Source of the DNA: Prevotella melaninogenica
GTDB taxonomy: Bacteria > Bacteroidota > Bacteroidia > Bacteroidales > Bacteroidaceae
Length of the DNA: 64,000 nucleotides
Assembly (NCBI RefSeq): GCF_018127965.1
Contig: NZ_CP072350.1
Span: forward strand, 1,116,001 to 1,180,000
Reading direction: 5' to 3'
Below are positions 50,218 to 63,796 of the stretch, piece by piece. The position numbers were made by a program, and so were the translations under genes. Below the pieces are notes generated by a model. It was not told where the DNA came from and did no database searches. It saw only the letters and a list, made by a program, of their open reading frames with translations. Numbering within the stretch: position 1 is the first letter of the stretch; each line of letters begins with the position of its first letter.

Positions 50218-50251
50218 CATATCTCCACAGTAACTCTATTAGAGATTGAAT

Positions 50252-51616
50252 ATGAAAAAGACAAATCTATTAATAATCGGTTCGGGACCTGGTGGTTACC
50301 GAACCGCTTCCTATGCTGCTCAGAATGGTTTGAAAGTGACAATCATTGAGAAAGCACAGCCTGGTGGAACCTGTCTGAATGCTGGTTGTATTCCTACGAA
50401 ATGCCTTGCACATGATGCTGAGCTACGCCTTACGACTTCTTCTCTTTATGAAACGACTCCCCCACTCGATTTTGCGAAGGTAATGGAGAGGAAAGAAGGA
50501 GTTATCAATCAAATTAGAGAGGGTGTAAGTACTTTACTTAGTCAGCCTGGTATAGACTTTATTGTAGGTGAGGCTCGATTTGTTTCTGACCATGTTATTG
50601 AAGTAAATGGCGAACAAATAGAGGCTGAGCATATCATCATTGCGACTGGATCACGTTCAAAGATGCCACCTTTCATGAGTGAAGAAGACTTCTTGAGCCA
50701 GTCTGAAACAGCACAAAACATTGTCACATCCACCGAATTGCTTTCTATTGCGAAAGTTCCTAACCGTCTCACAATCATTGGAGCAGGAGTAATTGGAATG
50801 GAATTTGCCTCGGCTTTCTCAGCTTTCGGTAGTGAAGTGACAGTTATTGAGTTTATGAAGGAATGCCTCCCTCCTATTGACAGCGACATAGCTAAACGCT
50901 TAAGGAAGACATTAGAGAAAAGAGGTGTGACCTTCTACATGCAGAGTGCCGTAAAACAAATCCTATCACCTACAGAGAGTGGACAGGAGTATACAACCGT
51001 TATATTCGATAAAAAGGGTAAAGAAGATAGTATTGATACCGACCTTGTATTGATTGCTACCGGTCGTCAAGCTAACTTCGACAATATCGGTATTGAATCA
51101 ACTGGCATAGAAGTAAACGCAAAGGGTATTGTTGTCAATGACAATATGGAAACAAATGTGAAGGGTGTATATGCTATCGGTGACGTCAATGCACGCCAAA
51201 TGTTAGCGCATGCTGCAACCTTCCAAGGCTTCCGTGCTGTCAATCATATTCTTGGAAAGGACGATAACATCCGACTTAATATCATGCCATCTGCTATCTT
51301 TACATATCCAGAAGCAGCCTGCGTGGGTAAGACTGAAGACCAGTGTAAAGCTGAGGAAATAAAGTTCTCTACTCGAAAAGGCTTTTATCGTGCCAATGGT
51401 AAGGCTTTAAGTATGAAAGAAACTGAAGGTATGATAAAGGTGCTGATAGCTGAAGATGGCTCTATATTGGGCGCACACTGCTATGGCGCACACTCTGCCG
51501 ACCTTATTCAAGAAGTTGCAACTTTAATGAATTATGATGCTAAACTGGATAAGATACGAGACATCATTCATATCCATCCTACGTTAAGTGAAATTCTACA
51601 AGATGCACTCCTATAA
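50252..51616 (+). CDS. lpdA: Dihydrolipoyl dehydrogenase (L protein)
   Basis: FAD/NAD flavoprotein reoxidising the dihydrolipoyl arm. From the ATG at 50252 it has 454 residues. FAD motif LIIGSGPGGYRTASYAAQNG is at the N-terminus, the redox disulphide is GGTCLNAGCIPTKCLAHD (CxxxxC), then the NAD motif TIIGAGVIGMEFASAFSAFG and the C-terminal His-Glu pair HIHPTLSEILQDAL. As the last gene of the gcv operon it is probably dedicated to glycine cleavage. A TTG two codons upstream is a less likely start. Confidence 0.95.
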   Translation: MKKTNLLIIGSGPGGYRTASYAAQNGLKVTIIEKAQPGGTCLNAGCIPTKCLAHDAELRLTTSSLYETTPPLDFAKVMERKEGVINQIREGVSTLLSQPGIDFIVGEARFVSDHVIEVNGEQIEAEHIIIATGSRSKMPPFMSEEDFLSQSETAQNIVTSTELLSIAKVPNRLTIIGAGVIGMEFASAFSAFGSEVTVIEFMKECLPPIDSDIAKRLRKTLEKRGVTFYMQSAVKQILSPTESGQEYTTVIFDKKGKEDSIDTDLVLIATGRQANFDNIGIESTGIEVNAKGIVVNDNMETNVKGVYAIGDVNARQMLAHAATFQGFRAVNHILGKDDNIRLNIMPSAIFTYPEAACVGKTEDQCKAEEIKFSTRKGFYRANGKALSMKETEGMIKVLIAEDGSILGAHCYGAHSADLIQEVATLMNYDAKLDKIRDIIHIHPTLSEILQDALL

Positions 51617-51694
51617 AAAGACAAGAATATTGGTTTCATTCTCTAAAATGACAATAATGAGCCTTTCTTCTCACATTTAATCAACGTGCCAATA

Positions 51695-51770
51695 CTTAAC
51701 ACGTGTGGTGCGAAGGCTTAGCACATGTCGTGTTGATGCTTAGCACCAATGGTGCGGAGCGATAAACACC
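51695..51770 (+). repeat. Family B 22-base palindromic repeat array, copy B4
   Basis: Three units at 51695, 51717 and 51739, each 22 bases and each starting CTTAACAC or CTTAGCAC with a central GTG/GGTG, plus a partial fourth. It lies 78 bases after lpdA. The 759-base gap up to ribE also contains the structured RNA candidate; otherwise nothing is seen. Confidence 0.85.
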
Positions 51771-51934: not shown

Positions 51935-51966
51935 TTTGGAGGATAAAAATCTTTATACTAACTTTG
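51935..51966 (+). promoter_or_regulatory. Promoter of the structured RNA candidate
   Basis: TTTG at 51935-51938, 20-base spacer, TAacTTTG at 51959-51966. The predicted start is about 51972. Confidence 0.85.
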
Positions 51967-51971
51967 CACGC

Positions 51972-52241
51972 AGAAAGGATACAGATTTAGTCGTATCGAT
52001 TCGATCGGGATAGTCATCAAATAAATTAGAAAACCCGAGATGACTTCTTTTGTTAATGGCGGGCCACATAAATCGCATTTCAGCGACTAAGCCGCAAGGT
52101 CAGTGGATTACAAAGACGAGGAGCTCTCTTATCATTGATACTCGGACTTTTCATCACATCGTCGATACGACTTTTCTAATTCCCATTTCTTTAAAGAAGA
52201 GGGATTGAGGTGGGGTTTCCAAGTGATTCCCCACCTTTTTC
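51972..52241 (+). ncRNA. Structured noncoding RNA candidate, family unknown
   Basis: About 270 nt with its own consensus promoter and a strong terminator, and no reading frame. The 11-base AGTCGTATCGA (51989-51999) pairs perfectly with TCGATACGACT (52162-52172) and encloses a 162-base domain. Inside it, AGTCATC (52012-52018) / GATGACT (52039-52045) and TCGGG (52005-52009) / CCCGA (52034-52038) cross each other, so they are alternative pairings or a pseudoknot. GCGG/CCGC (52059/52092) encloses TCGC/GCGA (52073/52083), and CGAG/CTCG (52117/52141) adds a further short hairpin. It does not match RNase P, tmRNA, SRP RNA or the FMN riboswitch as I know them. A 6S-like RNA or a new regulatory RNA are the options. 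ribE begins 135 bases after the terminator. Confidence 0.65.
52208..52241 (+). terminator. Terminator of the structured RNA
   Basis: AGGTGGGG (52208-52215) / CCCCACCT (52229-52236) followed by TTTTT; a second hairpin around TTCTTTAAAGAA lies just upstream. Confidence 0.92.
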
Positions 52242-52375: not shown

Positions 52376-52981
52376 ATGTTCTCAGGAATTGTAGAAGAGA
52401 TGGCAATCCTTAGAGGGATTGAACATGAACAGGAGAATATCCACTTCACTTTTCAATGTTCATTCACAAAGGAATTGAAGATTGATCAAAGTATTGCGCA
52501 CAATGGCGTGTGCCTTACAGTCATTCGCTTCCAAGACGATACCTATACGGTGACAGCCATGAAGGAAACTCTTGAACGCTCGAACTTAGGCTTACTCAAA
52601 GTGGGAGATCGTGTGAATATAGAACGTTCAATGATTATGAACGGTAGATTAGATGGACATATCGTACAAGGTCACGTTGATCAAACAGCTAAGTGTGTTA
52701 ATATGGAAGATGCAGATGGTAGTACCTATTTCACCTTCGAATATCCATGCAACCGAGAGATGGCACAACGTGGCTATTTCACCGTTGATAAAGGCTCTGT
52801 TACGGTCAATGGTGTCTCGCTGACTGTTTGCGAACCTACAGATAACAGCTTTAAGGTAGCCATCATTCCTTACACACGAGAGAATACCAATTTTGCTGAC
52901 ATTAACATTGGTACTGTGGTAAACCTCGAGTTTGACATTCTTGGCAAATATATAGCACGCTTAAACAGCTTTACAAAATAG
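52376..52981 (+). CDS. ribE: Riboflavin synthase (alpha chain)
   Basis: Dismutates 6,7-dimethyl-8-ribityllumazine to riboflavin. The 201-residue protein has two lumazine-binding barrels: MFSGIVEEMA at the N-terminus with HNGVCLTVI, then GDRVNIERSMIMNGRLDGHIVQGHVD and SVTVNGVSLTV in the second. Complete. It stands alone with a terminator after it. The typical FMN riboswitch is not visible upstream, although the structured RNA candidate is there. Confidence 0.94.
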   Translation: MFSGIVEEMAILRGIEHEQENIHFTFQCSFTKELKIDQSIAHNGVCLTVIRFQDDTYTVTAMKETLERSNLGLLKVGDRVNIERSMIMNGRLDGHIVQGHVDQTAKCVNMEDADGSTYFTFEYPCNREMAQRGYFTVDKGSVTVNGVSLTVCEPTDNSFKVAIIPYTRENTNFADINIGTVVNLEFDILGKYIARLNSFTK

Positions 52982-63737: not shown

Positions 63738-63796
63738 GCTGATGCCCCACACATATCGTGCGAAGGCTTAGCACCAATGGTGCGGAGCACTAATTG
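63738..63796 (+). repeat. Family B 22-base palindromic repeat array, copy B5
   Basis: Two full units at 63745 and 63767. The second, with its flank, shares TGCGAAGGCTTAGCAC and CAATGGTGCGGAGC with copy B4, from which a unit appears to have been lost. It fills part of the 323-base gap between the possible lptC end and the CNNM-type gene; the rest shows nothing. Confidence 0.8.

Follow-up and report, generated by a model that had tools for sequence, protein, structure and literature searches.

A probable 6S RNA gene with a covariation-supported rod fold upstream of ribE in Prevotella melaninogenica

We analyzed a window of 64,000 nucleotides from the genome of Prevotella melaninogenica (contig NZ_CP072350.1, positions 1,116,001 to 1,180,000). 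An RNA gene lies on its forward strand between a dihydrolipoamide dehydrogenase-like gene (50246-51616) and ribE (Table 1). The names of the two flanking genes (dihydrolipoamide dehydrogenase; riboflavin synthase, ribE) were assigned by reading their translations. An initial annotation, made from the letters alone, had proposed a stand-alone structured RNA gene with a promoter of the form TTTG-20-TAACTTTG, an 11-bp closing stem pairing over a long range, and a G/C-rich terminator, and by sequence this proposal is borne out. The promoter is present in the letters at 51935-51966. The arms of the closing stem are complementary at 11 of 11 positions, with 162 nt between them. The terminator arms, AGGTGGGG (52208-52215) and CCCCACCT (52229-52236), are followed by T, and the hairpin that they form folds at -20.5 kcal/mol (z -2.58). 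A simple terminator scan listed none; it accepts loops of up to 8, and the 13 nt between the arms here probably put this hairpin outside its range. Short open reading frames overlap the region, such as one of 52 aa at 52050-52208. A predicted promoter and terminator of its own are as expected of a 6S RNA.

Table 1. Coordinates of the RNA gene, its parts, and its downstream neighbor within the window.
Feature	Position	Strand	Basis
Promoter, Bacteroidota type: TTTG (51935-51938), 20 nt, TAACTTTG (51959-51966)	51935-51966	+	Sequence
6S RNA, probable (Rfam RF01693, Bacteroidales-1)	51989-52178	+	Rfam match and own model R1
Closing stem, 5' arm, AGTCGTATCGA	51989-51999	+	Complementarity and covariation
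Extended closing stem, 5' strand (GAU, GGGA, AGUC), bulged pairing with 52145-52160	52003-52015	+	Covariation
Central bubble, 5' strand; expected template of the product RNA	52016-52036	+	Anatomy from alignment and covariation
Apical arm with nearly invariant internal loop	52037-52128	+	Alignment and covariation
Central bubble, 3' strand, UUAUCAUUGAUACUCG	52129-52144	+	Alignment
Extended closing stem, 3' strand	52145-52160	+	Covariation
Closing stem, 3' arm, TCGATACGACT	52162-52172	+	Complementarity and covariation
Intrinsic terminator, hairpin and T run	52208-52241	+	Folding and sequence scan
Downstream neighbor ribE (riboflavin synthase, read from translation)	52376-52981	+	

The family of the RNA had been given as unknown in the initial annotation, with a confident Rfam match named as the result that would overturn this. 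A search of the whole window with Rfam release 15 returned one match above cut-off, to RF01693 (Bacteroidales-1), at 51989-52178(+). This match has a score of 112.4 bits (E 8.1e-18; gathering cut-off 60), spans model positions 1-179 at full length, and refutes the earlier assignment. The same annotation had listed 6S RNA and Bacteroidales motifs among the families to check, and the search led to exactly these: Rfam describes RF01693 as “6S-Bacteroidales RNA suggested.” It is the single match to this family in the genome. At E 10, neither the general 6S model (RF00013) nor 6S-Flavo (RF01685) matched in this genome.

We searched for RF01693 in 199 genomes and found it at 121 places in 120 of them, the window's own included. 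All 121 were fetched and 116 were aligned; the remainder consisted of one locus in which a contig end cuts the RNA (L110) and four with scores of 35-55 bits, below the Rfam cut-off (L118-L121). A perfect TAnnTTTG lies no more than 75 nt upstream in 100 of the 116 aligned loci. Among those 100, the spacing to TTTG is 20 nt in 43, 19 nt in 22, and 23 nt in 1. In 91 of the 116 sequences, the base of the closing stem is marked by four or more consecutive T residues.

The position of the RNA ahead of ribE had led the initial annotation to allow that it might be a leader or attenuator controlling ribE in cis. In favor of this possibility, 94 of the 121 loci carry ribE in the same orientation as the RNA, 16-310 nt downstream. 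All 94 of these are within the genus, which contributes 105 loci, and ribE was found in the fetched flank of none of the 16 loci outside it (one of which, L110, stops at the RNA). The absence of ribE there argues that a ribE leader is not the main role of the RNA, and adjoining ribE seems to be a neighborhood habit of the genus. According to our own scan, a separate hairpin terminator precedes ribE at only 20 of the 94 loci, which makes read-through into ribE plausible in many relatives; in these, ribE may be transcribed from the 6S promoter, by analogy with fau, which follows ssrS in E. coli. In the window, however, a terminator separates the RNA from ribE, and no FMN riboswitch family in Rfam reaches its cut-off, RF01693 alone doing so. 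These results weaken the proposed leader role, and we consider control in cis to be highly unlikely.

The alignment gave a fold for the whole RNA. We derived the structure with RNAalifold with ribosum scoring, after which helices were placed by hand on the window sequence. The fold is a rod: an 11-bp closing stem continues into a bulged extended stem, which is followed by a central bubble (strands of 21 and 16 nt) and then by an apical arm. Across the 116 sequences, 93.5% of 4585 cells in the rod are paired, and 30 of its 40 pairs show two-sided changes. The number of cells with two-sided changes was 405, compared with 93.0 (sd 17.3) in shuffled alignments, and none of 500 shuffles reached the observed value for any of the five measures used. 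When one strand of the rod was slid, pairing fell to 37-52%. Covariation in the 11-bp stem, which the initial annotation had singled out for checking, was found in these 116 sequences at all 11 pairs: every pair carries a two-sided change in one or more sequences, pair 7-254 in a single one. The extended closing stem (helix 3) is paired in 97.0% of cells and shows two-sided changes in 3 of 11 pairs; in 8 of the 116 sequences, including that of the window, AGUC/GACU takes the place of ACUC/GAGU (pair 30-230). Pair 60-208 of the apical stem is A-U in 73 sequences and G-C in 35. An automatic RNAalifold run on the same alignment produced a poorer structure, in which 26 of 30 pairs have two-sided changes and the closing stem is also present.

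Folding of the window sequence singly was only modestly better than folding of shuffled sequences (z -2.07; 8 of 200 as good), and it is covariation that identifies structure beyond chance. The Rfam model of RF01693 pairs the apical arm only, leaving the closing stem and the bubble flanks unpaired, whereas the rod derived here contains the closing stem with covariation behind it. The analysis thereby supplies a covariation-supported fold that includes an element absent from the Rfam model. 6S RNA of the RF00013 type, exemplified by E. coli ssrS, is a rod with a closing stem, a central bubble, and an apical arm. The rod found here by covariation, with its closing stem, its large bubble in the center, and its apical arm, has this 6S architecture.

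A covariance model, R1, was built from the 116 aligned sequences with the rod, including its closing stem; its calibration was short, making its E-values rough. In the window, R1 scored 175.6 bits at its only hit at E up to 10, the window being one of its 116 building sequences. We tested R1 on 12 of the 17 RF01685 matches from a sample of the phylum. Seven of these 12 6S-Flavo loci exceed the cut-off of RF01685, and the other five (L129-L133) lie below it. R1 found all 12 end to end (model 1-188; rough E-values of 2.2e-10 to 6.2e-6). Its hits coincided with the places matched by RF01685 and extended to the closing stem. At E 0.01, RF01693 recovered one of the 12, and its score there (38.3 bits) did not reach the cut-off. 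In a separate test, we made a profile from the 3' strand of the bubble and the GGAGUUU clamp and applied it to about 6,200 positions per locus. At 11 of the 12 loci its top score fell inside the 6S-Flavo match; in the exception, L130, three positions outscore the match. On the 12 Flavo sequences, 89.6% of the cells of the R1 rod are paired, and 98.5% of those in the closing stem, figures biased towards the structure by an alignment fitted to the model. 6S-Flavo resembles this RNA in having a corresponding closing stem, the ACUC/GAGU clamp, the 3' bubble strand, and the apical stem, but at its loci the closing stem falls outside the 108-position RF01685 match. It is likely that RF01693 and RF01685 represent a single ancient 6S family, found across the Bacteroidota and divided in Rfam because the models omit its closing stem, which is variable but covaries. 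Both the more complete fold and the union of the two families may be additions to what Rfam contains; we claim no priority, the literature consulted being that under open licence.

R1 does not recognize E. coli ssrS (6.2 bits), and between RF00013 and this RNA there is a sequence match in neither direction. The likeness lies in the rod anatomy and in the metabolic gene that then follows, fau in E. coli and ribE here. Given the negative searches with RF00013, RF01685, and ssrS, the case for identity with proteobacterial 6S RNA is built on architecture and the connection to 6S-Flavo, not on sequence. An RNA that acts in trans or binds protein without being 6S, and has only the rod shape in common with it, would be consistent with the failure of RF00013 to match and with the history of RF01693, which the available part of its source first lists as a candidate RNA with a cis-regulatory role left open (PMC2864571). 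Such an RNA is most improbable in view of the homology to 6S-Flavo, found both by R1 and by the bubble profile, and of the conserved sequence that flanks the bubble on both strands. We conclude that the region is very probably a well-preserved, ordinary 6S RNA gene of Prevotella, belonging to a family already catalogued in Rfam. An “unknown RNA” is in this way assigned to a housekeeping regulator, and the general picture of 6S RNA is unchanged.

Among its inner stems, the initial annotation had noted two that cross. Both TCGGG/CCCGA (52005-52009/52034-52038) and AGTCATC/GATGACT (52012-52018/52039-52045) are indeed perfect in the window, and the second is part of the minimum-energy structure when the window sequence is folded singly. 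Over the 116 sequences, AGUCAUC/GAUGACU pairs in 57.8% of cells; the columns of UCGGG/CCCGA are pairable in 92.6% of cells, but their changes are one-sided only. Taken together, the two stems are paired in 70.7% of cells, compared with 71.0% in shuffles, and their covariation is no stronger than in shuffles, 426-499 of 500 of which reach the same level. The stems thus stand in the letters of the window, but AGUCAUC/GAUGACU is not conserved and there is no conserved pseudoknot; since the same bases take part in the better supported rod, we give next to no credence to a pseudoknotted RNA formed by both. The UCGGG/CCCGA pairing could be an alternative state of the rod-shaped 6S RNA. A further pairing, CCGAG/CUCGG between the bubble strands, forms in 69.8% of cells. 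Its cells with two-sided changes and its covariation score exceed all 500 shuffles, whereas its number of two-sided pairs is equaled or surpassed by 396 of them, and with this mixed outcome it was not adopted into the rod.

Matches were found in 124 of the 199 relatives with R1, compared with 120 with RF01693. In the 80 genomes from other families of the same order (G120-G199), RF01693 was found in 16 and R1 in 20. Neither model matched in 16 genomes of the same genus, 15 of which are at most 88% complete, the other (G060) being listed at 98%. Among 14 named control genomes, RF01693 matched only in Bacteroides ihuae. Genome G099 (61% complete, 2% contamination) contains two RF01693 places on different contigs (L034 and L078), which represent either a second 6S RNA or contamination. 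In a whole-genome scan of the phylum with strict filters, R1 was found in 8 of 148 genomes: its own, 5 of the 17 with RF01685, and two others, G274 and G309. The R1 matches in G309 and G274 (loci L149 and L153), from one further family, have no RF01685 match and are possible unannotated 6S RNAs. Including the closing stem in the model connects two Rfam families and adds some candidates, which could help in annotating Bacteroidota genomes. In the parts of the literature available, one Bacteroidales-1 RNA is annotated in each of three strains of P. gingivalis (PMC5771137), and 6S RNA is expressed in F. psychrophilum (PMC9723704).

The internal loop of the apical arm, AUGGCGGGCC (52056-52065) and GGAUUACAA (52105-52113), is nearly invariant in the 116 sequences and forms no plain helix; 6S-Flavo keeps it only in part (GC-GGC and GGAU). 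Its GAUU sits 20-22 nt before the base preceding the conserved A of the bubble (20 nt in 100 of 116), close to the 19-20 nt spacing of the TTTG box in promoters of the phylum. That there is one Bacteroidota-wide 6S family and also that this loop is its phylum-specific sigma-contact element is conceivable, though we regard the combination as unlikely.

In the window, the 3' strand of the bubble contains TATCATTG, which agrees with TAnnTTTG at 5 of 6 positions. We examined such mimicry in 48 of the 116 sequences (nonredundant at 75%) with a matrix made from the upstream promoters. None of 300 shuffles scored as high as the 3' strand, but the same held for the 5' bubble strand, which served as a control, and mean scores were negative. 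In eight example bubble strands, shuffles equaled the number of matches in 12-90% of cases, the window giving 12%. With the control strand scoring too and shuffles equaling the matches, a promoter-sequence mimic in the bubble is unsupported. The distance from A to T in the bubble is 4 nt in 112 of 116 sequences; we treat this distance and the 20-nt spacing between GATT and the bubble as leads only.

In E. coli 6S RNA, the product RNA is templated by the 5' bubble strand. The junction between closing stem and bubble here carries a conserved ACUC-NN-CA, and C52018 falls in an invariant column of the alignment. From these letters and the anatomy, product RNA is predicted to start opposite C52018 and to begin GAUGACUAUCCC. 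By analogy with 6S RNA elsewhere, the function would be sequestration of sigma-RNA polymerase, with release through product-RNA synthesis. The RNA would be transcribed from its own predicted promoter and would then fold into the rod that covariation supports. With helices on either side, the bubble would mimic a promoter in its open complex and would tie up the RNA polymerase holoenzyme that carries the housekeeping sigma factor. Once nucleotides return, polymerase would initiate a product RNA on the 5' bubble strand, probably opposite C52018. This product would read into the closing stem and unfold it, whereupon polymerase would leave. Promoter mimicry by 6S RNA and release of polymerase by product-RNA synthesis are described in the available part of one report (PMC7657543). 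RNA-seq in B. thetaiotaomicron revealed a 6S RNA together with product RNAs of two classes (PMC7366714), and the accessible portion of that paper contains no equation of this 6S RNA with RF01693.

Upstream of the promoter, at 51685-51759, the window contains three imperfect copies (65-71% alike, spaced at 22 nt) of a palindrome-like repeat. Its sequence GTGCNAANNCTTAGCAC occurs at 22 exact places in the whole genome, compared with 0 for a reversed control, and is also present near 63757 in the window. Judged by these copies, it is an interspersed repeat.
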